Assembly: GCF_019649055.1 (NCBI RefSeq)
Contig: NW_026570233.1
Coordinates: 1,054,001-1,118,000 of the forward strand
From: Paramacrobiotus metropolitanus
Taxonomy: Eukaryota; Tardigrada; Eutardigrada; Parachela; Macrobiotidae
DNA length: 64,000 nt
Direction: 5' to 3'
Shown here: positions 26,516-53,974 of the stretch, in pieces
Numbering within the stretch: position 1 is the first letter of the stretch
How the letters are laid out: the number at the start of each line of letters is the position of its first letter
The notes under the pieces: model-generated
Databases searched by the model: none
Told to the model about the DNA's origin: nothing
What the model saw: the letters and a program-made list of their open reading frames with translations, nothing else
Position numbers and translations under genes: made by a program

Positions 26516-26534
26516 TGGTAGCAGCTTCTTACGG
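26516..26534 (+). promoter_or_regulatory. Primer binding site
   Basis: TGGTAGCAGCTTC begins directly after the LTR's terminal ACA. TGG pairs with the CCA end of a tRNA, as in most LTR elements. I cannot name the tRNA. Confidence 0.65.
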
Positions 26535-27186: not shown

Positions 27187-27214
27187 CGAACATCTTCACA
27201 CAGAAGATTGTTCG
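27187..27214 (+). repeat. ACACA hairpin in the leader
   Basis: Inner stem ATCTTC/GAAGAT around loop ACACA, one bulged T on the 3' side, then outer stem CGAAC/GTTCG: 11 bp. Noncoding position, so no codon constraint. Confidence 0.85.
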
Positions 27215-27274
27215 ACTTTCCCTAAACCGATAAAACTTTCAAGGCTCCATCAGAGCCGACCCGATTTGACCACA

Positions 27275-27526
27275 ATGTCGAATCAAAGGGAGAACGAATA
27301 CGCCAGAAAGTTCAACACGGACTATTCTCGGCGTGCAAACACGACCGGAAAGTACTCACTCCGGTACGCCGGTCAGGAAAAAAGTCAACCGTCCTCAACC
27401 GACTCGACTAAGTCGGCTGAGGCAAGGGAGAAACGTAACGAACGGATCCTCCTTGCCGACTCGAACCCAACTTCGGATGACAGTTTCGAGGACATAGGAC
27501 AAAACATTCCTGGACACCCAAGCTGA
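27275..27526 (+). pseudogene. Gag N-terminal segment, frame a
   Basis: ATG at 27275 opens an 83-codon polar segment (starts MSNQRENEY) that ends at TGA 27524. The reading then continues in the +1 frame from within 27498-27526. No domain. Probably the original Gag start, now out of frame with the rest, unless a programmed shift joins them. Confidence 0.55.
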
Positions 27527-27606
27527 CGTAGCAGCCCCGTCCCACCCGACCGGGGGGGATGTGGAACAGCTGCAGGCAGAGACCACATTGTCTCATGCCG
27601 ACCAAC

Positions 27607-27633
27607 AGTCGAGCTCACATAGAGCTCAAGACT
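27607..27633 (+). repeat. ACATA hairpin
   Basis: GAGCTC-ACATA-GAGCTC, with outer stem AGTC/GACT beyond a 3' AA bulge: 10 bp. Confidence 0.85.
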
Positions 27634-27956
27634 CGGTAACGGTCACAAAGGCCACCGAGCTCGGACGGCAATCACCCAACAGGACGGAAGAATTGCCGAA
27701 GCCGACTTCGCCCAACATGGACATACCGAACAATCAGGTCGGACAGAAATCGCCGACCACACAGGTCGAGCGAAAAACTCCGACTAAAAAAATCGGTGAA
27801 CAACAACCGATAAGCGGAGCCGACCAACAAACGGTCGGCCGATCTTTGGCGACGGAAGTCGACCAACAACAGGTCGACCTGCCACAATCCAAGGAGGTCG
27901 AACAGCCGACCCCGACTGGAATCGAACAGCTAATAACGGAAGTCGGTCGGGTCCAA

Positions 27957-27973
27957 CCGACCACACAGGTCGG
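27957..27973 (+). repeat. ACACA hairpin, CCGACC stem
   Basis: CCGACC-ACACA-GGTCGG, perfect 6 bp. Outer GTCC/GGAT pairing beyond a 2x2 internal loop. A sister site at 27753-27769 has the same loop with a 5-bp stem. Confidence 0.85.
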
Positions 27974-27979
27974 AAGGAT

Positions 27980-28017
27980 TAAGGTCGATGCTGACCCAGA
28001 AGGTCGATGCTGACCTG
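27980..28017 (+). repeat. 19-bp tandem duplication that breaks Gag
   Basis: Two adjacent copies of a 19-bp unit starting AAGGTCGATGCTGACC. Because 19 is not a multiple of three, the frame before it (27498-28013) differs from the frame after it. The ATG used as the formal start of the long Gag ORF (27988) lies inside the first copy. Confidence 0.9.
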
Positions 28018-30735
28018 GTCGAAGCGAACGCTCAACTAGCCGACCAAGTGTACGGACTGAACGAAGTCCTAAAGGAGGAACAGAAACTCCGAGCCCAGCT
28101 GGAATACAGCTTGGCTGAAGCCCAGAAGGTGAACGAGGCGCAACAGAACCGCATCGTTTACCTGGAGGCCCGCGAAGTCGAACTGTACGACTTCGGCGAA
28201 CAGGCCGCCCGCAATCTCACCGAGATGATGCGGCAAATGGACGAGATGGACACAGAAACACGGTGTCTAAGGGAGGAGAAAAAGCACCTGGAACAAAGCC
28301 GGGCTGAACCTCCCTCATATCGAACGTCCATGGCACAGGATCAACAGCCGTCACGGACGATCAGTGACATCCTGTGGGGAATTAACCCGACCCAGGAAGT
28401 GGCGAAGAAGGAGAACAACACCTCCTACTTCGTCGGAGTCGTGACAACCGACCCGAGTGTGGGAACAATCCCACAACCACCGACTATACCGAGTGCTCCG
28501 GAACCGGAACACAATACGTCGACCGCGGCACCACGAGTACCGACGTCGAACGTGGCGACAACAACGTCAGCCGGTGCGAATACTAGCACCTCGTACGCGA
28601 CGCGGACAACAACGTACGCGCCGGTACCTAACGCATTCAACCCGCACAATGCAGTGAGAGGAGACCGGACAACAGATCCCTTACGTCCCCCAATTCCGCT
28701 ACCGAGACCTGGAGTGGAAGCATATCGCCCACCAAGGACGAACTCTAACCCAAACTTCCTCCGCCAGAACTCGCCGTCCGACTTTGAACGAGCGAGGGCT
28801 CGGTCATTCAACACGGCCGACCAGCGGCCGGACGGACAGAACGAGGAGGCAAGTTCCGACCAACAAGGTCGGGTGCCTCCACACCGACCGACACAAGGTC
28901 GGATGCCGGTTCAGGGAACACAACCCAACCGGTACGGAAGAGTCTACGACCAACCGAGTGGATTCTATCCGCAGGCGCTGAGACAAAATCAAGCGCCCCC
29001 TCCACAACAGTATGGAGGACAGCCGCAACAGCCCCGTCACGAAGACCCGGCTCAGGCTCAGTATCCGCAACAGGACGGATACGACGACCAGTACGAACCG
29101 GCTCATCATCAGGGGGCGTACGAAGACCAACATGGTCGGATGCCATACGCCAACCCGCCACCCGCCCCGGCCGCACAACAAGCTGCGCCGGCGGCACACC
29201 CGATTCCTCCTGGACAGGACCCAACACACATTGCCTTAGTACGAGCAATGTCCCACGGACGTAGGCAACCTATGCCGTCGTTCGACGGAGACCACACCAA
29301 ACTACACGGGTGGCTCAAGCAGATCCGAAGCCTGTATCGTCAAGCCCAACAGTGGTACGAGGACGATCAGACCTTCATGTCCGACTTGGCGGCCCAACTC
29401 AAGGGCCAGGCGGAAGAATGGTACTACCTCGTTGCCGTCGACCAACCACTCGGCGGATGGCCAGTCAACGTATGGCTGACCAAGTTCGAGGAGCGATTTG
29501 CGGATAAAAACAGGGAAGTGAACCTCATATCGCGGATCAACAAAAGGATATTCCGCTTCGGCGAAGAAACGCCCGAACAATACTACGACGCTATGATGTT
29601 CATGAAATCCCAGGTCCGCACAATCACCGATCAGATCATACTGTATCATCTTAAGGAGAACATCCATGAACCCAAACTAAGGGAAGCTCTGGAAATCAGG
29701 ATGCCGGCAACGCCCATCGAGTTCCGCGACTACTTGCGGGGCTTTGTTAACGGCAAAGAGATGTATGAGGTGCGGAAACCGCGTGATGGCGACTACATCA
29801 GAGTTCGGGCAGCAACACCTGCACCTGTCCCGACTCCACCTCCGGCGATACCACAACAGACTGGATATCAGCCACACATGATGCCGGGATATCAAACCCC
29901 GACGGCACAGTACGGACAACCGAGTCCGGCACCGACGCCACCAGTGCAACAAGCACTACCCCAACAACAGACTTGGGCGGGCGCGGCAGCAGTGAACCCG
30001 AATCCCCCGGCACCTGGAATTGGAGCCCCCGTTAACAACTACGGAGGCCCAGGTTATAGTCCGGGCGGTAACCAAAACAACACAGGTTTTGGCTACGGAC
30101 AGAACTCCAACCAGGGATACTCCGCATATGGCCAGTATCCCACACAGGGATACGGCGGCGGAGGCTTTGGTCGCGGAAAAGGACGCGGCGGCGGGAACCG
30201 CGGCCGTGGGAACCTCCCTAACCGCGGCGGAGGCGGCAACCCACAAGGCAACCGACCTCCCCAGGCACAACAAGGTGCTCGGCAATATACGACCTATGTG
30301 GACCGGATGGAACAACTGTTCCTCCAATGGTCGTTAGCGGACAGCTTTACTTGCAACTTCTGCAAGTTCAGCAATCACGACCAAGCACGATGTGCGTTCA
30401 TTGGCACTCGGGTACAGGACAACCCGAATCGCCGGTGGTTTGAGGATTGGCACACGCGATACCAGACGGGCGGACCGCTGGGATCGGCCAACCCGAACTA
30501 TGCACTGGTCGTGCCGCCCCCGCGCCAACGCCAACAAGGTGGAAGCCCGGGTGGCGCCGGTAACAGAAACCGGCAAACTGACTCAGGAAATGGATTGGGT
30601 GGGAACCGCAGGAATAGCGGAGGAGGTTCTCCGGAACGGCGGCAACAGTTACCGCCCCACCAACCTTTCGGCTTGGCGTCGCCCAACAACGGGCCATCTC
30701 GGAGTAACTCACCGGGAAACGCCCAAGGTCGATGA
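27988..30735 (+). CDS. gag: Gag: capsid and CCHC nucleocapsid
   Basis: 915 codons. Residues about 10-110 form a Gln/Glu-rich, coiled-coil-like segment (YSLAEAQKVNEAQQNRIVYL). A long Pro/Gln-rich disordered region follows. The capsid core is about residues 420-610 (PMPSFDGDHTKLHGWLKQIR, then LAAQLKGQAEEWYY and FEERFADK), the retrotransposon-gag fold. Next come a Gly/Arg/Asn-rich stretch and one zinc knuckle C-x2-C-x4-H-x4-C near residue 785 (CNFCKFSNHDQARC). Known role: forms the particle and packages the RNA. The formal ATG lies in a duplication, so the native N-terminus was longer (see 27275-28013). The stop overlaps the next ATG as ATGA. The capsid is intact while the N-terminus is frameshifted. 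Confidence 0.88.
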   Translation: MLTQKVDADLVEANAQLADQVYGLNEVLKEEQKLRAQLEYSLAEAQKVNEAQQNRIVYLEAREVELYDFGEQAARNLTEMMRQMDEMDTETRCLREEKKHLEQSRAEPPSYRTSMAQDQQPSRTISDILWGINPTQEVAKKENNTSYFVGVVTTDPSVGTIPQPPTIPSAPEPEHNTSTAAPRVPTSNVATTTSAGANTSTSYATRTTTYAPVPNAFNPHNAVRGDRTTDPLRPPIPLPRPGVEAYRPPRTNSNPNFLRQNSPSDFERARARSFNTADQRPDGQNEEASSDQQGRVPPHRPTQGRMPVQGTQPNRYGRVYDQPSGFYPQALRQNQAPPPQQYGGQPQQPRHEDPAQAQYPQQDGYDDQYEPAHHQGAYEDQHGRMPYANPPPAPAAQQAAPAAHPIPPGQDPTHIALVRAMSHGRRQPMPSFDGDHTKLHGWLKQIRSLYRQAQQWYEDDQTFMSDLAAQLKGQAEEWYYLVAVDQPLGGWPVNVWLTKFEERFADKNREVNLISRINKRIFRFGEETPEQYYDAMMFMKSQVRTITDQIILYHLKENIHEPKLREALEIRMPATPIEFRDYLRGFVNGKEMYEVRKPRDGDYIRVRAATPAPVPTPPPAIPQQTGYQPHMMPGYQTPTAQYGQPSPAPTPPVQQALPQQQTWAGAAAVNPNPPAPGIGAPVNNYGGPGYSPGGNQNNTGFGYGQNSNQGYSAYGQYPTQGYGGGGFGRGKGRGGGNRGRGNLPNRGGGGNPQGNRPPQAQQGARQYTTYVDRMEQLFLQWSLADSFTCNFCKFSNHDQARCAFIGTRVQDNPNRRWFEDWHTRYQTGGPLGSANPNYALVVPPPRQRQQGGSPGGAGNRNRQTDSGNGLGGNRRNSGGGSPERRQQLPPHQPFGLASPNNGPSRSNSPGNAQGR
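30135..30153 (+). repeat. ACACA hairpin in gag
   Basis: GTATCCC-ACACA-GGGATAC, perfect 7 bp. GCC/GGC continues beyond a bulged A. Codon register: loop starts at codon position 3 of one ORF frame reading YPTQGY. Confidence 0.85.
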
Positions 30736-33257
30736 GCTCCGGTGACTCATTCGACCTCCAACATCCGACCGAACCACCGGACAAGGATAACCCGACTAAC
30801 CAACCGCTTAATTACCGGAAAGAACTCAACTCCCCCATAACGGTCGAGGAAGGCACTCAACAGATAGATGCCATCCTCCAACTGCTCGGACTGAACTATA
30901 ATAGTTCAGAAGACGACTTTGCGAAAGCAATGTCGGCCTCCACAAAGGAGGTAGAGGCGGCTCGGAAGTTAGCCGCTCAGCTCGGCGTGTATGTCAACAA
31001 TGGCACCGTCGAAGCTTGGCCCGGGATGCAACAAGCACTCGAGGCAACCGACCCAGCGCCCCAACTCGGTGCTGGAACGTCGGAGGTCGGAAAGCGAGAA
31101 ACGCCCGGCCCATGCAGCGCAAACAATGCGACTGCGCCGTCCGTCACACAAAGTGACGTAGCACGGCCCGGCCACGGAAGTTGGACCGGATTGCCGGTGA
31201 GGATAAACTCAACCGAGCAGCCCAGACGAGGCCCAAGACGTGGAGGACCGGGACGCCGATCCACGCACCGGGGCAACAGAAACTTCCCCAATGTGTCATC
31301 CGGACGCGCAACGGATAGATACGCTGCAACAATGGCAGCCATCGACCTTACCGAAGAATCGGAAGGAATCGAACAATGGGAAACAGTCCCATTGGAAGCA
31401 CAGGTACCCGTTTACTCTCGGCCGGGAGAAGCGGACCTCTTCCAGCCAAAGGAGCAATCAGCCAGAACGATAGCCAGCTCTCGAACATTCCTGAACCTCG
31501 ACTATATGTGGTCAAAATTGAGGCCAACAGACGTCTCAATGGAGGAAAGGATACTGGCTCAGGCACAACGGTTCGGAACCGCCAAACTACCGGAGGACGG
31601 AGTAGCTAACCGACCCGAGGTACAAGAAGTGGTTGAAGTCGGAGTCGAACTCACACAGAGTTCAACTCAACAGCAAGCCGACCACGGACCGGTGTCGTTA
31701 ATCCCCATCAAACCAACGGTGCGGGAAGTAACCTTCGAGAAAGGAACACATAAGAAACCGAAGACAGTTCGAGCTTGGACACACGAGATCCAAATCGGAT
31801 CCACGCCCACACTGGCGATGTTAGATACCGGAGCGGAGACTTCGCTCATCGAACAACGGTTCTGCGAGAGGAACGGCTTAACGGTGCAACCTCTCGGACA
31901 CTACACCAAAATACTTGGTGTGGGCGGACAAGTCGCCTTCGTAGTGTCTCACTGCTGTACAGCACCTGTAACAATGCAGGGCTTTACTAGCCATCACACT
32001 TTCCACGTCCAGCCGACCGAAGCGGACATCCCAGTGCTACTCGGATGCGACTATCTGCATTCGAAGTTCACCTTCGTTCTGACGCCGATTCCTACCCCGG
32101 AACAACCAGGAGGAACGACGGCAGTGCAGTCTATCCCGATACCAGAGGCATCGGACACGGTAGGAAACGAAGTTCGGATTAGTCGGCTTGATCACCCGGC
32201 GAACTCCACACGTAACATCTGCCGCGATTGCCGGGATACGAACCGCACTCTGCTGGAGGAACTAGCACTCCATAACGTGATAGAGCACTATCAGAAACGG
32301 ATACGCGACGGAACATTACGATCGGCGAAGACCGTACTGAAGTCTATCCCGATACCAGAGGCATCCGCTGACGCGGATGCCGTGAACCGAGAGGAAGTAC
32401 GACAAAAGTACCGAACTTGGTTCTCGGGAGTTCGACACTTTCTCGACCAACGGACGTCGGAGATAGTGACCACTCTGCAACAGAACGGAGCGGTAACCCC
32501 TGACCAGATACTGGACGCACAACAAACGTGTGAACCGGTAATCGCCCTCATGAGCGACGTAGAAGACGAAGCATGGGAATGGGAAGATGAACGAATTCCG
32601 ATCCATCGACAGTACATGGAATACGGACTCCCTATACCACCCCCTTTGGAAATGCCCTGCCAGGAATTGGGCTCCCAACTTTTCGCCTACATGCAGCGAG
32701 TAAGGTTGCACGGAGAATCGTCAACAACGGCATTCTGGCAACGATACGGCGAGGACACCGCCATAACGCGGCAAGTCCCTAAACCGCTACCACCACTTAT
32801 GCCGCACACTCCAACCAACGTGACGTTCGTGAGTAGCCCGGCGAAGCCTCAGGAAAACATAGTCCTGGAAGAAACCGATAAACCCTATCGGTGTGCTATC
32901 TGTCAAGACAATATTGACGAGGTAGTACGAGCAATAAAAGCTCACCACGACCTAACTTGGTCGGACGACAGACCGTCGTCACCGTCACCTCCGCAACAGG
33001 AACGGAAGGTAGATCGCTTTCGGAAGCCCCAACAGACGAGCATCCGATGGCTGAGCAACATAAGCTCCCAGCCAACCGACCTCGAGAATCAGGACGGAGC
33101 GGAGTCGACCTACCCAACCGATGGAGCAAGTCGACCAACCCGAACCGACCACAAAGGTCGGATTCGGCAATACGCCAGAAGTCGACCCCGAAAACGGATC
33201 GGAAGTCGAACTCGAAGATTATCAGTCGGACGACTCGGACATACAAAGTACGAGTGA
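30732..33257 (+). CDS. Protease ORF (retropepsin with long unknown arms)
   Basis: 841 codons, starting at the ATG of ATGA at the Gag stop, so reinitiation or a -1 shift could produce it. The catalytic motif is LDTGAETSLIEQRF at about residues 364-377, followed by GVGGQ and PVLLGCDYLHS, as in Ty3/Gypsy aspartic proteases. About 360 residues upstream and 380 downstream of the domain have no family that I recognise. The block AGTCTATCCCGATACCAGAG occurs twice (32128 and 32341), encoding SIPIPEAS 71 codons apart. A CAIC...HH arrangement near residue 720 might bind zinc. The last 194 nt overlap the open Pol frame in a different register. Confidence 0.85.
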   Translation: MSSGDSFDLQHPTEPPDKDNPTNQPLNYRKELNSPITVEEGTQQIDAILQLLGLNYNSSEDDFAKAMSASTKEVEAARKLAAQLGVYVNNGTVEAWPGMQQALEATDPAPQLGAGTSEVGKRETPGPCSANNATAPSVTQSDVARPGHGSWTGLPVRINSTEQPRRGPRRGGPGRRSTHRGNRNFPNVSSGRATDRYAATMAAIDLTEESEGIEQWETVPLEAQVPVYSRPGEADLFQPKEQSARTIASSRTFLNLDYMWSKLRPTDVSMEERILAQAQRFGTAKLPEDGVANRPEVQEVVEVGVELTQSSTQQQADHGPVSLIPIKPTVREVTFEKGTHKKPKTVRAWTHEIQIGSTPTLAMLDTGAETSLIEQRFCERNGLTVQPLGHYTKILGVGGQVAFVVSHCCTAPVTMQGFTSHHTFHVQPTEADIPVLLGCDYLHSKFTFVLTPIPTPEQPGGTTAVQSIPIPEASDTVGNEVRISRLDHPANSTRNICRDCRDTNRTLLEELALHNVIEHYQKRIRDGTLRSAKTVLKSIPIPEASADADAVNREEVRQKYRTWFSGVRHFLDQRTSEIVTTLQQNGAVTPDQILDAQQTCEPVIALMSDVEDEAWEWEDERIPIHRQYMEYGLPIPPPLEMPCQELGSQLFAYMQRVRLHGESSTTAFWQRYGEDTAITRQVPKPLPPLMPHTPTNVTFVSSPAKPQENIVLEETDKPYRCAICQDNIDEVVRAIKAHHDLTWSDDRPSSPSPPQQERKVDRFRKPQQTSIRWLSNISSQPTDLENQDGAESTYPTDGASRPTRTDHKGRIRQYARSRPRKRIGSRTRRLSVGRLGHTKYE
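31136..31167 (+). repeat. ACAAA hairpin in protease ORF
   Basis: CGTCAC-ACAAA-GTGACG at 31142-31158, perfect 6 bp. Outer GCCGT/ACGGC (5 bp) beyond an asymmetric internal loop. Here the loop starts in a different codon position from most others. Confidence 0.85.
31642..31668 (+). repeat. ACACA hairpin with C-A mismatch
   Basis: GAACTC-ACACA-GAGTTC (perfect 6 bp), then a C-A mismatch, then GAGT/ACTC: 10 bp. Confidence 0.85.
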
Positions 33258-36200
33258 TTCGGCGGACACAGACTCCGATAACCGACCTTCGGAAGAATCC
33301 GAGGAAGACGACGACGAAGAATTCGATCCGTCAGTCCGACACTGTAAAACGGATAAACCGAGCATAAACGACTCGGACGACTCGTCATCGGAGGACGAAC
33401 AACCGACCTACGATGTCCGGCTAACTACAGCATTGCGATCTATAATTCACACAGAATTCATAGACAAGCAACCGGAACAAACCGAGACAAAACCGGTCGA
33501 CTCCGAACAACAGGAGGAACTCGACCAACTTAAAATTTTGCGGGAATTCGGAGGAGGTAAACTGGAAGAAGATGATCTCCGACCTCCAACCATAGTCGTC
33601 CAGCAGTTGTCAACGGAACAACCGACCTTGGCTAACTTGACCGACCAACAGAAGTCGGAGCATTTCAACACATGGAAGGCACGAGTCGCCAAAGTCACGA
33701 CAATCGAAGAGTTGGACCTGGTCAACAAATGCCCAGAAGTCCACCACTTAAAGCTGGATCCTTACGTGGAGACGAAAGCGTTAGACCGACAAGTTGTCTT
33801 TAACAGCGAACGAGTCTCCCTCCCACCATGGTCAACATGTTCGATCAAGGTACGGACGGCCAAACCAATGGATCCGAGAAGACGAATCTACTTCTCTACC
33901 CTACAGCGGGTAGCCCGACCTATTCGGCCAATCGAAGCCAAGATCGACATCCGACCTCAAAACGACACGGCTTGGATAAATATCCAGAACACGACTCACC
34001 AATCTAAGGTGCTAAAGAAGGGCGTACGACTTGGCCACATGCAATACGCCGACGTCTACGAACCGGAAATCAACAACGAATTTGTCGAATGGGAACTCCC
34101 ACACAAAGTGGCGAAGGCATGGCCCCATACTCGGGAAGCAAAGCCAAAACCCCAGTTCGAAGTTTTCGAGGCAACAGGAGTTCGAGCCCAACGGAAGGTC
34201 AAACTCATTCCTCGAGCCGTCACCATGGTAGAAGTCGTCCTGGACGTACCGGTATCCACGGACCAGAAACTTATGTACCTAGGTGAATCCGACCCCAAAC
34301 GAGACGGAGTCGAATTCATGGACGGCGTAACCAAGCACGACGGGAAACGATTCACCGTCATGGTGGCAAACCACACTCATCGAGAGGTAACCTTGCGCAA
34401 AGGCGCACTGATGGGTCGAGTTGAAGCATTCACTATGATGCCGGACGACCAGAAAGTCGAAGAAGCACGAGTCAACACGGCGGAGGTAGAAAAGGAAGAC
34501 GCCGAATCCCAGGAGGAGCGACGGAGAATCATCGACTCCATGAACTTCGGTAAAAACTTAACCGACGAACAACTCGCCAAACTAAAGGCAGTTGCATGGG
34601 ATTACCGGACTGTATTTCCGACCTCGAAGAAACCCTACGGAGACGTCAAAGGGGTAACACATACCATTGATGTCCAAGGTGCACAGCCGATTAAGATGAA
34701 CCCCACCAGGACAAGCTGGAAGGGACGTGAATTCATCCAAAAACACGTGCAAGAGATGCTCGACCAAGGAGTCATCGAACCGTCATCGGCTGCATGGAGC
34801 TTCCCCGTCGTCTTAGCCGCGAAACGGAACGGAGACGGCACGGTAGGAACACGCTTCTGCATCAACTATATCAAGTTGAATGCCGTCACGAAGAAAAACA
34901 ACTACCCACTACCGAACCCGGACGAGCTACTGGACCGATGCGCCGGAATGGAGTATTACGGCAAGGTAGACTGTCAGTCTGGCTTTTGGCAAATTCCAAT
35001 GGACGAACAATCCAAGGACTATACGACCTTCGTAACACCCGAAGGCATGTGGAGATTTAACCGTATGCCGTTTGGAGTCTGCAACGGACCAGCAACTTTC
35101 CAAATGCATATGGACAAAATCACAGCATCAGCTCGGAAGAAGGGTGTGTTCGCCTACATCGACGACATCATCTTCTTCGGAAAAACGTTCGAAGACTTCC
35201 TTGAGGCTTTCCGAGCGACTCTCGAATGCCTCCGCGATGCTGGATTTACGGTCAAACCCTCCAAATGTGAGATCGGAACGGACAGACTGCTGTTCCTCGG
35301 ACACGTCCTTAGTAAAGACGGAGTCCAGACCGATGACGAGAAAGTGGCCTGTATCGCAGAACAAAGCTGCCCGAGAACCGAACGACAACTTAGGTCGTTC
35401 CTCGGACTGGCCAACTATTATCGTAAGTTCATCCGAGGATACGCTCAGAAAACTTCGAAAATGTACGAGCTCCTCCGGAAGGATAAAAATATCAAGCTCG
35501 ATTGGACGGAAGCCCACACGGCCGAGTTCAACGACATCAAGAAGGCGCTAACAGAAGCACCTGTACTGGCGAAGTTCGACCCGACTAAGAAGACCGTCAT
35601 CGAATGTGACGCAAGCGGAGCCGGACTTGGCGCGGTGATCTCACAAGACGATCATCCAATCGCTTACGCCAGTCGAGTCCTACGAGGACCGGAACTCAAC
35701 TATGGAGTTACCGAATGGGAATGCTTGGCCGTGGTATGGGCCGTGCAGAAATTTAAGCACTTCATCGACCACGGACCATTCACCGTAAGGACGGACCACC
35801 GAGCACTGCAGAACCTGCTCCGATGCGAGTCGAACCGACCCGGCATCAACCCTCGACTAACGAGATGGGCACTGGCTTTACAAGGACGGGACATAACCAT
35901 CGAGTATAAGCCAGGCGTATTCTGCGACAATGCGGACGCCCTGTCGAGATGGCCACTGGAACGCAGTGAAGACAAAGATCCACACGAAGAGTTGGACCAA
36001 GTCCCCAACTTCGAGGACTTCAAGGACGAAGTTAAGGTCTGTACAATACGGACTCTTAGACGTCTGATGGCGAACGCCTCCAAGAGGAAGAAGAAGGATA
36101 AGGAAAACCCACCGAAAATCCCCCTTCCACCGGCTCTCCCCGGATGCAATGTCATAACCGACTGGGATGACTTGAGTACCACAGAGGTCCGAGTCATTAA

Positions 36201-38316: not shown

Positions 38317-38492
38317 GGCCATAGGTGTAAAACTTAGAATAAGTTTTAGGTAGCTTAACAGTAGCTAGGTATAGATGGACCTTGGGTGTCGAAATGGAAT
38401 CTCTTCAGTTGACCGGAACATCTTCAGTTGAATGTACGGGAGTTAGTAGAATTCTAACGCGCCGTATTTCCTTTCCTTGACAGCAAGCAACA
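38317..38492 (+). promoter_or_regulatory. Pol-ORF4 spacer with candidate 3' splice site
   Basis: 176-bp noncoding gap. It ends TATTTCCTTTCCTTGACAG (AG at 38482-38483), a good acceptor 9 nt before the ORF4 ATG and in phase with it. The same TTGACAG follows T-rich tracts at 48285-48291 and 53155-53161. Confidence 0.65.
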
Positions 38493-40529: not shown

Positions 40530-40537
40530 TCACAGGA

Positions 40538-46000: not shown

Positions 46001-48075
46001 TAATCCGTACCGTCCGAGTACACGTAGAGGTCGTAAGAAGTATTGAAAACGCCAGGAAAAACGGCGTGGACATCTACCAATCCTTGGTCCGAGACCTGTC
46101 CAACAACATTCAAGTCGGAGGCGAAACCGGAAAGTGGTTGACGCATCAACTCATGATGCAGATCGTCGCCTGGACTCTGGATTTCGGATTAGCAGTAGCC
46201 GTTCACCGACAATGGGGACGGATGGCCGAACTGCTCCCACCGGACCTCATTAAAGCACTTAGAAGTGCAGCCGCCAGAAATGCGGACGACACACCAACTC
46301 GGATCGCAAGGTGTATCGGATACATTCGGAATCCCCGCGGATCGACATTGGTCCAAATTGCCCGTGTATATAACGTGATGTACATGGACAAGAAGGGCAA
46401 CATCGATGACATTATCGACCATATAGCAGGTCGAATCGAAGCCCTAGTCGCGGAACATACCCTTCAGACGACAAACGCGGAACGCGATGTACCGGTACGA
46501 TACACCGTGCCCAACTTCATACCGGAACAACATCGGCGTGAATTTAACCTCCGGATGTCTTACGTCAACACGGACAAGCCTCCGGCGGGTACGGAACCTA
46601 CCGAAGAGTATAGCGACTCCAACGAACAACCGTCGGACGAAGCAGCCAACCTGCTGCACATAGCTCGAACGGCAGGACAGTCGTCACAAAGACGAGTCCA
46701 AGTTTTATCCCTACCTCGAGCACCCCATGAACCGACAACATATGTCGGCACGGCATCAGCTCCAGCGGGACGAGCAAGCACGGCGAACCCGACTCGGAGC
46801 GCTAAAGGACGGTTCATACCGAAGGATGTACAGTCACTTCCACCGTCCTCGCCCATGGAAATTTCGCCGGAACCAGAAGACCAAACCCAACAAAAGGGAA
46901 AGTCAAAGTCGACTAAGACAAAGTCGACTAAGCCGGCTAAGAGGAAGGAACCGAAGTCATCCGAATTGATTTCGTCGTCCGAGGAAGAAACCGAGGACGA
47001 TGACGACGACGATTTCCAAACACCTGGGAACGGGTCGCCAAAGGACGATGACGACGACGACGAGAACGGTAAACCCCCACCACCGTCGAACTCGGCACCT
47101 CAACAGCAGGCCGAACCGGAGATACCGGATAGGCAACCCGAAGAGAAGGATAACGGTGATAAAGCCGAAGATCCTAAGGGCGAAGAGGCAGATGGCGGAG
47201 TATACGTCCCTCGCAAGTACGGTCAACGGATATCATTGACTCCCGACACTGACCAACAACCTCTTCTCTCGGAATGGAACGAAGACACGATGGAAGTCCT
47301 ACCAGACGACATTCCTCCGTTGGTCAACGTTCGGGTGAAGTATACCGGCATTAAATCGGCTTCAAAACCGAAGCCGAGTGTCTCGGAATATGACGCAGGA
47401 TGGATGTACACGTTCGCCGCTCTGAAGGCCCTTGCGACAAAAGGACCAAAATTCGCCACACCAAGGATCGCCTTCAAACTCCTCCAACACTGGAAGGTAG
47501 ACGAGAAGGGCGACTGGCGACAACTGAGCCAGAATAACGTACGACATTACTGTGACTTGGGATACCATGCACGGAAGTTGATACGAACATACACCAGCGA
47601 AAAACGGATGTACTACGAGTTCCCGCCGGCTCAAAGAGACCCGGCTCCTTCAACATATGAAGGATGGATACACGCTATCGAAGCGTGCATGGGAATGTCA
47701 TGGCATCCGGAAGGATTGACCCGCGGAGAAATACTCCACCAACTCACGGCACGGTTTGAGTTCGAATGGAAAACTGAGAAACCCCAGCTAACCGACACAA
47801 AGTATAAGTCGAAACCGGACCCGACGGAACGACGAACGAAGTATTCCCTGGAGGACGACCTGGAATTCGTCTTGTCGAAGGCGCTTAACCAACAGCGGTT
47901 CGCCTCGAATACGGATAAAATCCAGGGCGGTCAACGGTTTCTGGCCTTAAACCCATCGACTCACCGGCACGGACACTTACCGACTACACGACCGACCTCG
48001 GCACAACCGACCGAGTCGGCCGACTCGCACACAGCAAGTCGGCCGGAGTCGACAGAAGCACCTACCCGGGAATGA
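43039..48075 (+). CDS. ORF6: very large protein of unknown function, globular C-terminal domain
   Basis: 1678 codons from ATG 43039, inside the end of ORF5. Residues 1-240 hold two more helical-hairpin modules (VILELRKMMDETDQRTPQYC). Residues about 250-960 are Lys/Pro/Ser-rich, disordered and basic. Residues about 970-1170 are a helical domain (QWGRMAELLPPDLIKALRSA). An acidic tract lies near 1310-1350 (SSEEETEDDDDDDF). The C-terminal 300 residues look globular, with tryptophans in a pattern that might be winged-helix (RIAFKLLQHWKVDEKGDWRQ and MSWHPEGLTRGEILHQL). No family can be named with confidence. Charge layout suggests nucleic-acid contact. No membrane segment. Confidence 0.8.
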   Translation: MEAIPDTDELPSTVAPHIVKLLARVAELITEMRARRNFCEDNSQEANDLDRDILACGNNTRFIRRLCHPDAPQTTRTRQHLIRTTSWLETRVNEYEEEKERDKEKESTNLATNAMAEGRSSRITKIQSARKPNFDSVRLPPPAPPAKPDLEWVKAVNTQLLRVDAVILELRKMMDETDQRTPQYCQIDINLGHLENNTKEARFILRPTTVWSAKNQERLQTLTAMIQSFVDDFHKRKEAEEQRKPKKPPSAKKPKVQPVKPTQVVSPVSHQDDPMGDLPVPGLEGEDEPMDTSDEVGATEANRPKPLERPMTLSGLSQREPQSERVEEHGPRRRLFPTRSPSPARTKEQLLELLKATSSPVPPAQEKPSPSRKVMGAKALFTPGVHKKLVSQAKTLDLQRILYEAQLQGGIRDRTMTEEQQTQLAQKIHATIQDRDKVLRRLVTLRCGKQELRQLPLDSNMIQTIQRLRNPSINPGAYTLEIQPRPGEEVTEKIPITMSDSSEDEENADNIDSDDSTHQKAAAPPKGSTPKRGRSPIKQISPTRSASQPTKLPSQPTIEKPPRFSPRNTPTKPKKTQEEMDTTFPLEARVETTVETSPQRDEPTSVHSGPRLTIDESRTNETVKQSVNIPTKRSTAKEKPPQDSSREFHDDLALQHVKDLTRSEQDACIDMAYPEDRELWHSLRIRRASIVGNTTEARRDHDRLTEKMSDVMKRMGEHYRAEKSRPKALQAATPTRHKVTAPEPKSTKKTVQQSVVKMKVPPPTRQPSVQIDDDLDTRVINSANSAQSHKDKRKAKKETAKQPAKPQPTETQKKPVKSEAKETTKPKSDSTVKTPKPNPAKRHKSSDDLDISDAGPQRTEQKEKAQQPHDKEAVERKFKEVMERTGTKPAKTSGGRLRNPPKPPTPIEQRQPSTSKQQSDAESDHISDIEEKDSISDHGEGDPYEGFKGDLKEMFDHGADTDESQWPAPDDVRERLPDEQPDDPVETLIRTVRVHVEVVRSIENARKNGVDIYQSLVRDLSNNIQVGGETGKWLTHQLMMQIVAWTLDFGLAVAVHRQWGRMAELLPPDLIKALRSAAARNADDTPTRIARCIGYIRNPRGSTLVQIARVYNVMYMDKKGNIDDIIDHIAGRIEALVAEHTLQTTNAERDVPVRYTVPNFIPEQHRREFNLRMSYVNTDKPPAGTEPTEEYSDSNEQPSDEAANLLHIARTAGQSSQRRVQVLSLPRAPHEPTTYVGTASAPAGRASTANPTRSAKGRFIPKDVQSLPPSSPMEISPEPEDQTQQKGKSKSTKTKSTKPAKRKEPKSSELISSSEEETEDDDDDDFQTPGNGSPKDDDDDDENGKPPPPSNSAPQQQAEPEIPDRQPEEKDNGDKAEDPKGEEADGGVYVPRKYGQRISLTPDTDQQPLLSEWNEDTMEVLPDDIPPLVNVRVKYTGIKSASKPKPSVSEYDAGWMYTFAALKALATKGPKFATPRIAFKLLQHWKVDEKGDWRQLSQNNVRHYCDLGYHARKLIRTYTSEKRMYYEFPPAQRDPAPSTYEGWIHAIEACMGMSWHPEGLTRGEILHQLTARFEFEWKTEKPQLTDTKYKSKPDPTERRTKYSLEDDLEFVLSKALNQQRFASNTDKIQGGQRFLALNPSTHRHGHLPTTRPTSAQPTESADSHTASRPESTEAPTRE
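43501..43522 (+). repeat. ACACA hairpin in ORF6
   Basis: TAAC-ACACA-GTTA with one bulged T on the 5' side and outer GCAG/CTGC: 8 bp. Confidence 0.8.
43980..44002 (+). repeat. ACAAA hairpin with C-A mismatch
   Basis: TCTC-ACAAA-GAGA, C-A mismatch, outer GGGG/CCCC. Loop register differs from the PTTQV-coding sites. Confidence 0.83.
44825..44842 (+). repeat. ACAAA hairpin with bulged A
   Basis: CGTC, bulged A, CC, loop ACAAA, GG, GACG. Confidence 0.75.
45692..45706 (+). repeat. ACAAA hairpin in ORF6
   Basis: CCGGC-ACAAA-GCCGG, perfect 5 bp. Confidence 0.75.
46675..46699 (+). repeat. ACAAA hairpin in ORF6
   Basis: TCGTC-ACAAA-GACGA, 5' AG bulge, outer GGAC/GTCC: 9 bp. Confidence 0.8.
46732..46748 (+). 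repeat. ACATA hairpin in ORF6
   Basis: CCGACA-ACATA-TGTCGG, perfect 6 bp. Confidence 0.83.
47646..47664 (+). repeat. ACATA hairpin in ORF6
   Basis: TCCTTCA-ACATA-TGAAGGA, perfect 7 bp, inside the putative globular C-terminal domain. Confidence 0.85.
48017..48045 (+). repeat. ACACA hairpin with C-A mismatch, 11 bp
   Basis: GC-ACACA-GC, C-A mismatch, then a 9-bp lower stem with 5' arm CGGCCGACT. Near the end of ORF6. Confidence 0.87.
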
Positions 48076-48291
48076 GGTAACGCAGAATGCGTTGGAGGAG
48101 TGGCATAACCGACCTTCCTCCAGTGACACCATACAGGCGTCATCGACCAACAGAAGTCGATCTACCTCATAGACGACCACAAAGGCGTCTTGGACCAGCT
48201 CGAGAACCGACCTGGCCCGACCGTAGTAATCATAGGATGTAAAAGTATAGGATGCAACCGAGAAACGGTTCGCTTACTTTTGTTTTGACAG
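48076..48291 (+). promoter_or_regulatory. ORF6-ORF7 spacer with hairpins and candidate 3' splice site
   Basis: Noncoding. It holds ATCGAC/GTCGAT around CAACAGAA (48142-48161), the bulged-A ACAAA hairpin AGACG-A-CC/GG-CGTCT (48171-48190) and AACCG-AGAAA-CGGTT (48256-48270). It ends CTTACTTTTGTTTTGACAG, a strong acceptor with AG at 48290-48291. Confidence 0.65.
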
Positions 48292-50472
48292 ACTCGTACG
48301 GAAGCTTATACGGTGGACTGCCAACAGTGCAGGAATAATGCGACAAGGGACAACAACAGATTACCCTGCGCACAATGTATCGTATTCTTTACAAACGAAA
48401 GGGTTACCGGCACTGGACCGCAACACAGAGCTCAGGCAGCGGCACTTTACATTAATGTTGTCGCTGGTAACTTGAGCGCATACCGGTACCTGGCCGGCAG
48501 AGAATATCTAGTCGACCAACTAGAGTCGCATGAACAGGACAATCTGGCCACCATCCAGCGACAACGTACTCGCGACCCGACATGGCAAGGAACTCGACCA
48601 CCAGTCCTAACAGATAGACTGTGGGAGTACCGTCAGCTGCAAGACGCTAACCGCCAATTGGAGGATCAAAAGAGGATCAAAGAGGTCGACGAACGAATCG
48701 CCTCGATGAAACCCCATCCCCCACCGACCGACTATGCACCAGAAATAAAGATTCGGTTACCGGCACCCACGCAGGGTCGCTCGGATAGCGAACAGCTGAT
48801 TCACGATGTACGCGACGTCTTCGTTGGAGATCCACACCGACCATTGACGAGCACATCGGTGACGATGATGATGAATATGCCGGACGGAACCCAACAGCCA
48901 GTTACCCTTGTTCCGGCGACTCAGGAACAGTTGATGGCAATCCCACACAGGGCAACGCCAGTGGTCACACAGGCCCGTCCAACTGTCTCCCAGCAGATCC
49001 CTCAACACGGAACTCGGACCCAATCGGCGGCTCAACAGCAGCAGCGCCGATCTAGCAAAAACCTAGCGGGACACGACCTTCGACATAGAATTGGTCCAGT
49101 TGATCTTCGAGACAGAATCGAAGAGCAACGAGCTGTCATCCGCCAGGTCGGAAAAGAGCCGACCAGACCTCCACCAGGAAAACGCACTGGATCTGGAGAA
49201 ACAGGAATTGGACTTACGGTCGACTTAACAAATAAGTCGAAACGCAACTTCGTCCCACCCGAACAGCACCCGGAAGCCCATCAGGCAGAACCGGCAGCGG
49301 CAGTCCAAGTTGAACCAGCAGCTCAACAAGAGCAAATGGACGTCGATGTGGCCGACCAGATGGCACAACTACCACAAGTGGAAGTGCCGGCCCGGGAAGA
49401 TCCTCGGTACGACCATGCCCGACGACAGGGAATTGAAGTCGTAATGCCACATCCGACCGAACGAACAAATCACATCATGAACGTCATGAACTACGAGGAA
49501 CGGAACCGACCACAAGTCTGGCGGATGGTAGAAAACCTTCGTCAATTCCTCGTCCGATCTGGATACCAGATGCTGCTCGAACAACACCAATGGCAATCGG
49601 ACTTCAACATGTCTGCGCACACAGCACAGAATGTTGAACATCCGTACACCAGATCGAATGCGTTACCGTCGATGACTGACCCGGTTTTACTGAACGTACC
49701 GCTATACAGCCCGGACGGAACGCGTGCGAGCCAACTAGGAGCTCGGGAATACTCCCATGACGAGTTGGAAAGTATTGCCCAGTTCGTCATAACGGACGCA
49801 CATCCAGCCTTCATAATTACCGCGGCTCGGGCAGCGCTGGATCTAACCCAGTACCTTCCAGAAGGGGAGATCGACATGGCCCAAGACGGAGTCACGGCAT
49901 TCCTGCGATTCATTTTCGCAGCCCGGCTTGGCAATTACTTTTGCCATTACACCCTGTACGGATTGTACCAGAACGAAATGATACCAGCGGCCTTGGAAAC
50001 TCTTGTAGCCCAACTTGGCACACCAATGAGAAGCGTAATCCTCGCCGTCTGGATGCGCGATTTACTGTATACCCACGAACGGTATGCGACAAAGTATGCC
50101 TTTCGTGAGGATCACGTAGATCCCAGCGACGATGCAACTCGATTCATCAGCTGGTACCGCCAAAGGAAGACTTTGCCTAGCGGATTCAACTCATCGCCCT
50201 ACGAACCTTGGATGTCGGACGACATAGCACCCGGCGCACGACCGTATGCGCTGCGGCTCCGGAAACAGGCGGCCAGGGAATCGAAGAAGGGCAGAGCGGA
50301 TTGCCCCGGCCAGGAGACGGACGAGACCGACGAGATGTCTCAACGGAGTGGCCTGGCAACTTGTAAACCCAAGGACTCGAACATTCGGCCACACTACCGA
50401 CCCCGCCCGGACGATGATGAGGAAGAAGATTACTTCGGCGGCGACAAACCCGTCGAAGTCCCACTCAGTTAA
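48292..50472 (+). CDS. ORF7: zinc-motif protein of unknown function, no own ATG
   Basis: The frame is open from 48289 to the stop at 50470. There is no ATG before about residue 130, so it most likely begins by splicing onto an upstream exon at 48292, which is exactly in phase. Near the start a C-x2-C-x12-C-x2-C motif (CQQC...CAQC) could bind zinc. A Gln/Arg/Pro-rich region follows, then about 300 residues that look globular and mostly helical (IMNVMNYEERNRPQVWRMVE, then FVITDAHPAFIITAARAALD and LETLVAQLGTPMRSVILAVW), then a basic/acidic tail. It occupies the env position, but I see no signal peptide, transmembrane helix or furin-like site, so I do not call it env. Confidence 0.75.
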   Translation, partial: TRTEAYTVDCQQCRNNATRDNNRLPCAQCIVFFTNERVTGTGPQHRAQAAALYINVVAGNLSAYRYLAGREYLVDQLESHEQDNLATIQRQRTRDPTWQGTRPPVLTDRLWEYRQLQDANRQLEDQKRIKEVDERIASMKPHPPPTDYAPEIKIRLPAPTQGRSDSEQLIHDVRDVFVGDPHRPLTSTSVTMMMNMPDGTQQPVTLVPATQEQLMAIPHRATPVVTQARPTVSQQIPQHGTRTQSAAQQQQRRSSKNLAGHDLRHRIGPVDLRDRIEEQRAVIRQVGKEPTRPPPGKRTGSGETGIGLTVDLTNKSKRNFVPPEQHPEAHQAEPAAAVQVEPAAQQEQMDVDVADQMAQLPQVEVPAREDPRYDHARRQGIEVVMPHPTERTNHIMNVMNYEERNRPQVWRMVENLRQFLVRSGYQMLLEQHQWQSDFNMSAHTAQNVEHPYTRSNALPSMTDPVLLNVPLYSPDGTRASQLGAREYSHDELESIAQFVITDAHPAFIITAARAALDLTQYLPEGEIDMAQDGVTAFLRFIFAARLGNYFCHYTLYGLYQNEMIPAALETLVAQLGTPMRSVILAVWMRDLLYTHERYATKYAFREDHVDPSDDATRFISWYRQRKTLPSGFNSSPYEPWMSDDIAPGARPYALRLRKQAARESKKGRADCPGQETDETDEMSQRSGLATCKPKDSNIRPHYRPRPDDDEEEDYFGGDKPVEVPLS
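49220..49240 (+). repeat. ACAAA hairpin, 8-bp perfect stem
   Basis: 5' arm TCGACTTA, loop ACAAA, exact complementary 3' arm. In ORF7. Confidence 0.9.
49603..49638 (+). repeat. ACACA hairpin, 14 bp with C-A mismatch
   Basis: GC-ACACA-GC, C-A mismatch, TCTG/CAGA, one bulged G on the 5' side, then an 8-bp lower stem with 5' arm TTCAACAT. The longest member, in ORF7 coding sequence. Confidence 0.9.
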
Positions 50473-50500
50473 GATCGAGTTCCCACATTGGAACTCGATC
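50473..50500 (+). repeat. 11-bp perfect hairpin at the ORF7 stop
   Basis: Starts on the base after the stop codon. 5' arm GATCGAGTTCC, loop CACATT, exact complement. The loop equals that at 39029-39034. Confidence 0.9.
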
Positions 50501-51205
50501 CCCCCCTACTTCGAACAAACTAAGGGGACTCAACGCCGAGAAACGGCACGGTCAAGAATCGACCTGACGGAGAAACAGCACCGTCGAGAAACGACTTCGG
50601 AATGGACATTTTTCTTTAGTTTTTCTTTTTCACAGAAACCGACTAGCCATGTATACGGCGGACGTCAACGATGACTTTTGCCAGAGCGCCGACTACACAA
50701 GTTGGCCGGATTCTTCGGTTTGACCCGGACACGAGTGGTTAGACCTGACAAGCCGGCCTTTTCCACCGTTCCGGTACGTCTTCCGAGGAATCCCCTGGAT
50801 AGAACTGGGCAAACCGACCCCAGTTCCCCAGTATGGCACTTGCAGATCGCAATCACATCTGCTCACATAGCAGATCAACCACGTTCTGCGACCATCGGAG
50901 CCAACAGAAGCCCCAATCCGCGTTACATGGAGCCGACCGATAGTTACATGGTACACATCACACCATTAACCACGACCGGCTAGGAAGAATACTCCGGCCA
51001 ACCGACTCCGGAGCATAGACCGAGAGGATTACGCTAACGTGGCGCTGAATACGCCGCTGCGTGCTCAGCACCATGTTTGCCAAGCACCCGTGGCCAACTT
51101 CGGAACCGGGTAGCCGAGCAGCTTTCACTATTGTAAATAGCGGAAATCCCTCGGCCGAGCCGCCAACAGTGCAGGAAGACTCGGATTTGACTATAAGTAT
51201 TCGAG

Positions 51206-51222
51206 CCGACCACAAAGGTCGG
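51206..51222 (+). repeat. ACAAA hairpin, CCGACC stem
   Basis: CCGACC-ACAAA-GGTCGG, perfect 6 bp, noncoding. Confidence 0.85.
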
Positions 51223-51286
51223 TTGCGCAAGCCGATCACAAAGTCGGAACTGCAACGAAGCACATCGTCGAACCACGTTTAACCAC

Positions 51287-51313
51287 CCTAGCCGATCACA
51301 TAGGTCGACTAGG
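51287..51313 (+). repeat. ACATA hairpin with C-A mismatch
   Basis: CGATC-ACATA-GGTCG (one T-G wobble), C-A mismatch, outer CCTAG/CTAGG: 10 pairs, noncoding. Confidence 0.85.
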
Positions 51314-53270
51314 TATACGGCAGCCGACCACACAGGTCGACTATAACGGCCAACAGAAGTCGCCCACGAAGAATGGACGGAAGCCAGCAGTGGGTACGTG
51401 GCAGCCTAACCGGATTCTCCGTTGAACCCAGACCTACAGGCTCTGTACCTGGCATCCAATCGAGTCTCCCCCGGACGACATCGGGTAAACCAGCCGATTC
51501 ACCGGTGACCACGACTACGCGCGTCTCGAACGTGCTGCCATTCCCTGAAGAGGAACAGCGACGGTGATTTGGATACCGGTGTACCAACGACTCCGCCGCG
51601 ACCTGCTTCCCCATGTCTTCAATGGAACATCCTAGGCAGACTGAGTCAGAATACTCGGCCCGCACCCCCTTAATGAACCCCCGACGACGATGACCACTTG
51701 CCCGCAACAGTACCGGCCAATTGGGCAGCGTCACCGGCAAAGAATAATTTCCCCGTGGACGTGAGTCGTCTACCCCCACGGAAGCGGCTAGGCGTCTCAG
51801 GTTCGCGGCAAAACAAAAACGGAAGAATCGGATCTGATGACCTCAGGGACTTGCATGTGCATGAAGTTTAAAATCAAAAGAGCTCGGCAACCGGGGCCAC
51901 AAAGACCCTTAGCGTTGTAAGCGAGCACAATTGCATGACGAATCGCCAGTCACTCGGCCAACAGATGCCAGAAGAAGTCGCGACTGTGCGAGACTCGACC
52001 GCCCAGAGGTATAACCAGCCAACAGTAGCCTGGATCCGACCCAGAGTCTATGTCAGGAACCACAGAAGGAACGGAGTTGTGCTGCCGAACATCCTTCTGC
52101 CAGTCAACACTGACCGAAGGATGTCCGAACACCGGAGACCCGGCCAACTGTAGCCGCAGGCACAGAACTCCTAAAGTCGGAAGCTACCAGATGGAGGTCG
52201 GAAGTAAACGACAACAGGTCGGAAAAGGAACTAGAAGTAGGAAATCGACCTCCCTGCGGAAGCGCCTACCCTTTTGACGGATGAACACAAAGTTTATCCG
52301 ACCTAAGGAAGTCGGAAAATAGCCGACCTCAGAACTTTGGCATGAATAACCGACCTCAAGTCGAAGTCGGAAACCCAGTCAACATGACCGAAGACGATTG
52401 GTCACTGTTTGTGGTGGATGAATTCGACCTGAACGCACTTGTTTAGCCCCACATGGGCATGTTATTGCAGGTTAACCCTAGTCGACCACCGACGGATAGG
52501 ATGACCGACCTCGACAGTAGGTCGGATAACAACGGAATATACCGGATGGAAGTCGACTGGACACTTCCATCGAACAAACCCACGATTTCCGATCGGACCT
52601 TCGAGCCAGTTCGACTCGGATTACTTCAAACCAGGCTCGTGGTAGCAGATTAAACGGTTGTAACCGACCACTTTTTGAACGGAACTGCTGTACATGACGA
52701 CCACAAAGGCCGCATGACTTACATACAGTTTTTTCCGACCTGAACTTTAGCAATTCGGAACATAGCCGAATTTCCCCCAGCCGCCGGTCGACTCACCGGT
52801 AGGCCGACCTTGGTCAAACCGACCTTGGTCCTATTCCTTATTCAGAGAGGATGCCTCGGCATTTGCATCTGCAACAGTGCCTCTCTATCCCGAACGGATG
52901 GATACGAGTCGGAAGTAAGTGTTTAACCGTGCTTATCCGACCTCGGTGAATGTAACCGGTTACGACGGGTAACCCGGGAACTGATGCCCCGGACCCAATT
53001 TTACCGGATGAAAGTGGACAGGAGACCCCGTGGAGACTCAACTGCCCCGTGGACGTCATCCTAGTCGGAATAGGACCCCCGGACAGATTTTGGCATTATT
53101 TTTTTTAGCATTTCTCCTAACAAACGGAATTGTATTTTTTCTAGTTTGATCTCTTTGACAGATCTGTTTTGTAACCGCTTTTGCTCACTGGAATTGTGAT
53201 TAAACTTTATTTACTTTCTTTCGCGCTGCATAAACTTTCATTACACTTTTTCTTTTCACATTGTTCTCCG

Positions 53271-53723: not shown

Positions 53724-53974
53724 CTCAGCGTTCATACGCTCGCGTTGGATAGAGTCCAGTCTGCGCATCATCACACAGCTGATGGCACACAGCACGTGCT
53801 TGCCGGCAGTTGCTTCTTTCACGCCTTGAAGACGCTCAAGAACCCACTTTAGCACACACTTGCTAGTAGCCATCACTGCTTTTGTTCTTGCTTTCCTGCT
53901 ATCACGCAGCATTGTTCCCCCTTTATTTGTACAATAAAGCATCACTCGTGATCTCCTCGTGCTTGTCTGTTACA
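53536..53974 (+). repeat. 3' LTR (439 bp)
   Basis: TGTCAG...TGTTACA, AATAAA at 53933-53938. The sequence just upstream (CGGATTCCCGCCCAGAGGCA) is not a clear polypurine tract. Confidence 0.92.

Follow-up and report, generated by a model that had tools for sequence, protein, structure and literature searches.

The retroviral packaging signal Psi consists of stem-loops thought to be read by the CCHC nucleocapsid of Gag, and in single-stranded RNA (ssRNA) viruses the role of scattered coat-protein-binding hairpins in RNA packaging is debated. Excerpts of two papers describe dispersed packaging signals in the ssRNA virus MS2 (PMC6281560, PMC8472981), the recognition motif of which combines a loop motif with an A in a 5' bulge (PMC6281560). 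Among long terminal repeat (LTR) elements, excerpts on Ty1 describe 5' RNA structures for dimerisation and packaging (PMC5454406), and excerpts on Burro of planarians describe a giant Gypsy-like element with an internal region of up to 25 kb and a length of more than 30 kb with its LTRs (PMC6431247). Here, a 64,000-nt stretch of the genome of the tardigrade Paramacrobiotus metropolitanus (the window; contig NW_026570233.1, positions 1,054,001 to 1,118,000) was analysed that holds a 27.9-kb LTR element on the plus strand (26076-53974 of the window). Its genomic RNA is predicted to form roughly 100 short hairpins with variable stems and the apical loop ACANA, either as a 5-nt loop, mostly C-G closed, or as a 7-nt loop NACANAN. 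That these predicted hairpins exist, and that those between 39.5 and 44.7 kb are under selection, appears almost certain.

The closest functional parallel to the set is offered by the dispersed packaging signals of ssRNA viruses, as far as the excerpts describe these, since there too numerous stem-loops that differ in their stems but have a loop motif in common lie scattered in the RNA. Two features of such signals were found, namely many predicted stem-loops that share a loop motif and, between 39.5 and 44.7 kb, selection on structure apart from coding. The element differs from them in being a 27-kb LTR retroelement, in that the set is strong enough to be visible in one sequence and in that related lineages prefer different loops; membership of the packaging-signal class, which is defined by binding and assembly, is not claimed for the hairpins. 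As in Psi, several hairpins lie in the leader (27192-27973), but the predicted hairpins run the full length of the element and are not confined to the 5' leader. Ty1 is likewise an LTR retrotransposon with cis-acting structured RNA, there involved in packaging, but this RNA is 5'-terminal and the excerpts make no mention of a repeated loop code (PMC5454406). Burro shares the giant size and the coding capacity beyond gag-pol, but has a 4,873-aa ORF1 polyprotein with host-like domains where seven open reading frames (ORFs) are found here, and both mentions of a hairpin found in the excerpts concern Helitrons (PMC6431247). Among open-licence papers, no earlier description was found of an LTR element with a dispersed or genome-wide set of loop-coded hairpins. 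A single sequence suffices to show a strong signal in this element, one that codon-preserving controls do not remove. Synonymous sites in it are conserved in the part tested, and the genome contains several natural versions of the loop.

Abundance and form of the ACANA hairpins

ACANA was closed by a perfect stem of at least 6 bp at 14 of its 227 occurrences in the element, compared with a mean of 0.06 (maximum 1) in 200 dinucleotide shuffles. An earlier note on this DNA had expected far fewer than one such case under even base composition. In the rest of the window none of the 139 ACANA had a stem of more than 4 bp closing a 5-nt loop. The 13 loop starts that the note had listed all proved right, each being closed by 6-8 bp of uninterrupted Watson-Crick pairing, and one further 6-bp case, at 43126, had been missed. 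A second list of 12 hairpins gave stem positions in place of loop starts; the hairpins themselves are all predicted, at -9.8 to -25.1 kcal/mol, with loops starting 5-16 nt downstream, at 33449, 39339, 39681, 41162, 42604, 43510, 43989, 45697, 46686, 48029, 49619 and 51298.

Relaxing the stem to at least 5 bp resulted in 23 cases among the 219 ACANA of the internal region, compared with 0.17 (maximum 3) in 200 dinucleotide shuffles and 6.3 in codon shuffles. As the noncoding part, which holds 6 of the 23, was left unshuffled in the latter, subtraction leaves about 17 coding cases against about 0.3. Local folding placed 115 of the 219 internal ACANA in a loop of at most 9 nt, a count reproduced neither by dinucleotide shuffles (36±6, maximum 51) nor by codon-preserving shuffles (54±5, maximum 69). 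By hairpin energy, 125 sites reached -6 kcal/mol and 61 reached -12 kcal/mol, while 40 shuffles gave means of 30.9 (maximum 41) and 3.9 (maximum 8), respectively. The full predicted set is made up of these 125 plus-strand sites (27165-52764; loop starts from 27165 to 52760), a few of which overlap and about 31 of which are expected by chance. Between about 60 (codon shuffles) and 94 (energy count) hairpins are thus above chance, and the "dozens" first reported were no overstatement.

The preference for ACANA did not depend on assuming a loop. When all 680 5-mers with at least 15 occurrences were ranked by their tendency to lie in hairpin loops (base rate 9.4%), ACAAA, ACACA, ACATA, AACAA and ACAGA took ranks 1-5. 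By folding of the element, ACANA was in a loop in 52.5% of cases, compared with 29% for AAANA and 26% for AGANA, and in the left flank in 10 of 82 (12%). Perfect hairpins of any kind (stem of at least 6 bp, loop of 3-10 nt) were not in excess, at 110 in 27.0 kb of element and 153 in 35.2 kb of flank. The reverse-complement loop TNTGT had a stem of at least 5 bp at none of its 23 sites in the element, and folding placed 4 of 23 minus-strand ACANA in loops as opposed to 115 of 219 on the plus strand; the hairpin feature therefore has a strand. No match at gathering score was obtained between positions 26000 and 54000 with the 4227 families of Rfam 15.

Loop and bulge statistics were computed after overlapping ACANA sites had been reduced from 108 to 102. 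The pentaloop was preceded by C in 43 of 53 cases and followed by G in 43 of 53. Stems vary widely with a tendency towards CGACC...GGTCG, in keeping with the earlier statement that the hairpins are not copies of one repeat. Where a pentaloop stem was interrupted 2-3 bp below the loop (18 cases), a single 5' bulge was seen in 9, a 1x1 mismatch in 7, a larger interruption in 2 and a 3'-only bulge in none, which may be set beside the 5' bulged A of MS2 as the excerpts describe it. An A at the third pair was frequent in the window (24 of 53 pentaloops), and one piece of a related element (L043) has GACGACC[ACACA]GGCCGTC three times, at 2892, 3480 and 4668, and in each of them the third pair is an A-C mismatch. 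The recurrence of this A is a hint of a second contact base.

Density was 3.4-5.4 predicted hairpins per kb in the leader, in each of ORF1 to ORF7 and in the 3' region, while two short gaps between ORFs had 0 of 0 and 2 of 3 ACANA sites in hairpins. The spread over leader, every large ORF and 3' region was as first described, and all three codon phases are occupied overall where at least two registers had been reported. An RNA-processing mark, one of three functions then proposed, is unlikely, as the hairpins are evenly distributed over the ORFs, the noncoding regions and the LTR.

Selection between 39.5 and 44.7 kb

Conservation of the hairpins was evaluated in an alignment of 30 loci over 39.5-44.7 kb, made up of the window copy and 29 others that were 78-93% identical to it in the matched part. 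Third-codon-position divergence from the window was 0.076 in stems (85 sites) and 0.102 in loops (28 sites), compared with 0.254 in unstructured ACANA (24 sites) and 0.273 in the remaining 1544 sites. Mann-Whitney tests gave 4e-13 for stems and 1e-5 for loops, where sites within one hairpin are not independent. Divergence was determined for 20 hairpin and 13 unstructured ACANA, and ACANA between the two energy limits were left out. Alignment A2 is without L022, L037 and L038 and alignment A3 without L010 and L037, on account of deletions or missing sequence.

For covariation, overlapping hairpins were removed and the one of lowest energy kept, leaving 15 ACANA hairpins and 63 other predicted hairpins in the same stretch. 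Where both members of a pair had changed, pairing was kept in 77 cells and broken in 24 in the ACANA hairpins (18 pairs), as opposed to 214 kept and 290 broken in the others; six slid controls gave 21-51 kept and 35-119 broken. These cells share ancestry and are hence not independent events. A hairpin with a 5' bulge and the loop ACAGA in ORF5 (41921-41947, loop at 41933), which has one mismatch in the window copy, showed changes in both partners of two pairs when the copies were compared, and its covariation score was reached by 2 of 500 shuffles. The 7-nt-loop hairpin CCAGAC[GACAGAG]GTCTGG, also in ORF5 (40984-41002, 40991), had one such pair and a score reached by 47 of 500 shuffles. The earlier note had looked to other copies for pair-preserving substitutions; these were found, along with the lower third-position divergence, and together with the codon shuffles they support its proposal of a selected nucleic-acid structure.

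Related lineages, the candidate reader and rival explanations

A reverse transcriptase (RT) search of the genome (170 Mb, 533 contigs) returned copies at 66-99% amino-acid identity among the best 60 of 2021 candidates scored. Seven 8-kb pieces (L039-L045) were then scanned for loops of any pattern. In L042 and L039, which belong to one element (RT 76%), the preferred loops were CAANA at 7 of 49 sites (0.33 expected) and CAATNA at 5 of 12 (0.07 expected). In L041 and L044 (RT 88%) the 7-nt loop CACNNAA was found at 14 of 24 (0.20 expected) and 13 of 24 sites (0.24 expected), respectively, although in L044 a repeated CCTCAGG hairpin ranked over it. In L043 (RT 91%) NACANU was found at 10 of 47 sites (0.31 expected) alongside ACANA. 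Shuffling was applied to L039-L043; the best pattern of L042, L039, L041 and L043 was better than each of the 20 shuffles by at least some three orders of magnitude, while L040 alone (p 2e-5) stayed within its shuffles (best 4e-6). Loop preference was weak in both L040 and L045, which count here as relatives of L039/L042. CACNNAA was not at density in the Gag-region pieces of its lineage, for which one loop per element is not claimed. In the 3' regions of that lineage (L044:3514-5317 and L041:5874-6463) the hairpins CCGACC[TCA]GGTCGG, CCGAC[AACAG]GTCGG and CGAC[CACAGAA]GTCG are repeated.

At two homologous places both stem and loop differ between lineages. One lies in ORF2, where CGTCAC[ACAAA]GTGACG of the window (6 bp, 31142-31158) corresponds to AGTACC[CAATTA]GGTACT in L042, and the other in ORF7, where CTTCGA[GACAGAA]TCGAAG corresponds to CTCGA[CACAGAA]TCGAG in L041.

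The best explanation for these results is that the hairpins are dispersed protein-binding sites on the genomic RNA that serve Gag-driven packaging or condensation, a reading for which we see about as much chance of its being right as wrong. Selection would then have kept the hairpins, also beyond 39.5-44.7 kb, as many equivalent sites on the plus-strand RNA for an RNA-binding protein encoded by the element. This protein would most probably be the nucleocapsid part of Gag (ORF1), with its Gly/Arg-rich stretch and CCHC knuckle domain, and its binding would let the 27-kb RNA be recognised, condensed and packaged in a cooperative manner. In retroviruses, nucleocapsids that bear CCHC knuckles read RNA stem-loops, and Gag is for that reason the first candidate reader. 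Among the three functions of the earlier note, a dispersed Gag-binding or packaging signal is the best fit. Lineage-specific loops might, as a speculation, stop co-resident families from packaging one another's RNA. The wider proposal, that loop-coded RNA recognition spans the whole giant retroelement with about 100 hairpins sharing one loop word read by its own Gag, and that related families each rewrote the word at many sites together with its reader so that each packages its own RNA only, is put forward as a possible but rather doubtful extension. Several loop versions within one genome pose a ready comparative question, namely whether the Gag of each lineage prefers its own loop, and a hairpin set of this kind would heavily constrain the coding sequence of a giant element.

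The candidate hairpin-binding domain is a conserved region of about 60 aa in ORF1 that contains the CCHC zinc knuckle CNFCKFSNHDQARC (30352-30393, plus strand). CCHC spacing was kept in 7 of 8 Gag-region pieces of other copies, with none in L052; L042 has a stop inside the knuckle and L050 stops beside it. An AlphaFold model of the Gag domain was of too low a quality to be of use (mean pLDDT 45). In a related element, C42, no ORF4-6 match was found between pol and ORF7, homology jumping from 38149 to 48148 of the window, and hairpins are present. ORF4-6 of the same element are therefore not required, although they could be supplied in trans.

A number of observations weigh against Gag-driven packaging or reduce the support for it. 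The knuckle varies by lineage (CNFCKFSNHDQARC in the window, CGHCLWGNHNQASC in L049), and as knuckle and loop differences both follow lineage they amount to parallel and not independent evidence. Hairpin positions are mostly not shared between lineages: mapped hairpin rows, several of which can describe one hairpin, fell at a window hairpin in 1 of 4 cases for L042, 0 of 3 for L039, 0 of 2 for L045, 1 of 1 for L041 and 8 of 25 for L043, and no rows of L040 and L044 could be mapped. Turnover of positions within a constant loop class is, on the other hand, what redundant sites would be expected to show. Regular spacing was tested for and not found, the gaps having a coefficient of variation of 0.98 as in random placement, and the even spread is not universal, since in the C42 element hairpins were sparse in three pieces from gag-pol (7.9 kb) and dense in the 3' half. 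The conservation test covers a single 5.2-kb stretch, within which covariation of single hairpins was modest and one-sided changes kept pairing equally often in ACANA hairpins (293 of 857 cells) and other hairpins (1467 of 4262). Single changes in the ACANA family did not give GU above AC (26:31 shared, 34:37 rare), so that plus-strand RNA as the paired molecule is not shown there. Finally, excerpts on the virus STNV-1 report that proposed short degenerate signals were without effect in vivo (PMC6475782).

The strongest rival explanation is that the hairpins are bound by a host RNA-binding protein, or by a protein of the element other than Gag, for export, stabilising, silencing or localising of the long unspliced RNA. 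The same structural evidence fits such a reader, and binding at many sites suits any ribonucleoprotein. Several cellular proteins also bind motifs of the ACA type. Lineages within one host genome prefer different loops, however, which an element-encoded partner explains more easily, and an element can have hairpins without ORF4-6 of its own; this alternative is consequently considered unlikely, if still a serious one.

A role in reverse transcription or recombination, through polymerase pausing or template switching between co-packaged RNAs, is quite improbable. Of the replication or recombination site suggested before, one suggestive case for recombination stands. The window allele is shorter by about 594 nt, in frame, and joined within a CGACC[ACACA]GG hairpin whose sequence is present at both ends of the longer allele, which is the arrangement to be expected after a template switch between two similar hairpins. 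The argument rests, however, on this one junction (41318-41334), for which repeated sequence alone would suffice, and it offers no reason for one fixed loop. At the same place L023, L024, L026, L029 and L036 have 591-594 nt more than the window copy and L034 about 291 nt more, all multiples of 3. At 44012-44017, BLAST alignments break where about 80 nt of 24 of the 29 other copies are missing from the window copy, L010 and L023-L026.

The active molecule might instead be minus-strand cDNA with hairpins bearing TNTGT loops, and the shared GU and AC changes of the ACANA family are in line with this. In the CAANA lineage, however, GU exceeded AC by 14 to 2 (11:2 without homologous repeats), and in the ACANA family the comparison may be obscured by the A-C that recurs at the third pair; a minus-strand structure is accordingly regarded as very unlikely.

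It is barely conceivable that base composition, the choice of codons or the copying of repeats produced the hairpins as a side effect, as the loop-proneness of A-rich words such as AAANA and AGANA in an A/C-rich, T-poor element and the repeated hairpins of L041 and L044 could suggest, given the shuffles, the differing stems, the synonymous conservation, the covariation and the absence of direct repeats of at least 25 nt between 50400 and 53600. An artefact of composition or codons was ruled out by the dinucleotide and codon shuffles, third-position conservation and covariation, copies of one repeat in the window by the differing stems and the lack of direct repeats, and generic genome-wide RNA structure by the finding that other hairpins are not in excess.

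Architecture of the element and coordinates of the hairpins

All features described below are on the plus strand. The element is bounded by a 5' LTR (26076-26515, TGTCAG...TTACA) and a 3' LTR (53536-53974) with TG...CA termini, which were paired by blastn at 412 of 445 identical positions (93%), and is flanked by a 4-bp target duplication, CCAC (26072-26075 and 53975-53978). The LTR identity is just 93% despite the presence of seven open ORFs; the two are identical over the first 143 nt with the differences clustered further in, a pattern that might reflect recombination or conversion instead of age. Immediately 3' of the 5' LTR lies a primer-binding-site-like sequence, TGGTAGCAGC (26516-26525), which may be initiator-Met-like.

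Seven plus-strand ORFs were found. ORF1 (27988-30735) is Gag by position and contains, besides the Gly/Arg-rich stretch and CCHC knuckle, a weak capsid-like match to DUF4939 (E 0.079), which is under the Pfam cut-off. Domain matches place an aspartic protease in ORF2 (30732-33257) and RT-RNase H-integrase in ORF3 (33121-38316). The resulting order of Gag, protease, RVT_1, RNase H, Integrase_H2C2 and rve suggests an element of the Ty3/gypsy type, an assignment based on that order of domains. ORF4 (38493-40529), ORF5 (40526-43093), ORF6 (43039-48075) and ORF7 (48313-50472), all with predicted hairpins inside, matched no Pfam family above the curated cut-off. Searches of 5.8 billion proteins with ORF1 and ORF4, in which 8000 candidates were scored each, gave two matches each, and all four were named Paramacrobiotus metropolitanus. 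In L043:1368-8000 a single frame stays open for 2211 codons, to the end of the piece, over the match to ORF4, ORF5 and the first part of ORF6, where the window has separate overlapping ORFs.

Within the LTR, GTAC-(G)-GTCC [ACACA] GGAC-GTAC is found at 26105-26126 and again at 53565-53586, with loops at 26114 and 53574; its 4-bp apical stem was computed and its outer stem recognised by eye. The leader has 6-bp hairpins at 27192-27208 (loop ACACA) and 27611-27627 (ACATA), a 5-bp hairpin at 27754-27768 (ACACA) and CCGACC[ACACA]GGTCGG at 27957-27973. ORF1 contains a 7-bp hairpin at 30135-30153 (ACACA), and ORF2 a 5-bp hairpin at 30937-30951 (ACAAA) and a 6-bp hairpin at 31647-31663 (ACACA). CCGACC[ACAAA]GGTCGG lies where ORF2 and ORF3 overlap (33145-33161) and is followed in ORF3 by a 5-bp hairpin at 33444-33458 (ACACA), while ORF4 has a 7-bp hairpin with a G-U pair at 39674-39692 (ACACA).

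ORF5 has a 6-bp hairpin at 41112-41128 (ACATA, loop start 41118), in place of which L033-L035 have a hairpin that differs entirely in both stem and loop. The same ORF contains a 5-bp hairpin with an outer stem at 41157-41171 (ACAGA), ACGACC[ACACA]GGTCGT at 41318-41334, the junction discussed above, and AACCC[ACAAA]GGGTT at 42599-42613. ORF6 has CTCATC[ACAGA]GATGAG at 43120-43136 (loop start 43126), GGATC[ACAAA]GATCC at 43403-43417, 5-bp hairpins at 45692-45706 and 46681-46695 (both ACAAA), and hairpins of 6 bp at 46732-46748 and 7 bp at 47646-47664 (both ACATA). An 8-bp hairpin is found in ORF7 at 49220-49240 (ACAAA), and the 3' noncoding region has CCGACC[ACAAA]GGTCGG at 51206-51222 and a 5-bp hairpin at 51325-51339 (ACACA).

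Immediately to the right of the element, at 54098-54845, an array of 8-nt tandem repeats is followed by three copies of a 159-nt repeat. A second RT element, with a SAP domain ORF and an RT ORF, lies at 58583-62471; the genome contains one copy of it at 95% identity, besides distant relatives. It formed part of the flank control, in which no ACANA, as a 5-nt or a symmetric 7-nt loop, had a stem of at least 5 bp.

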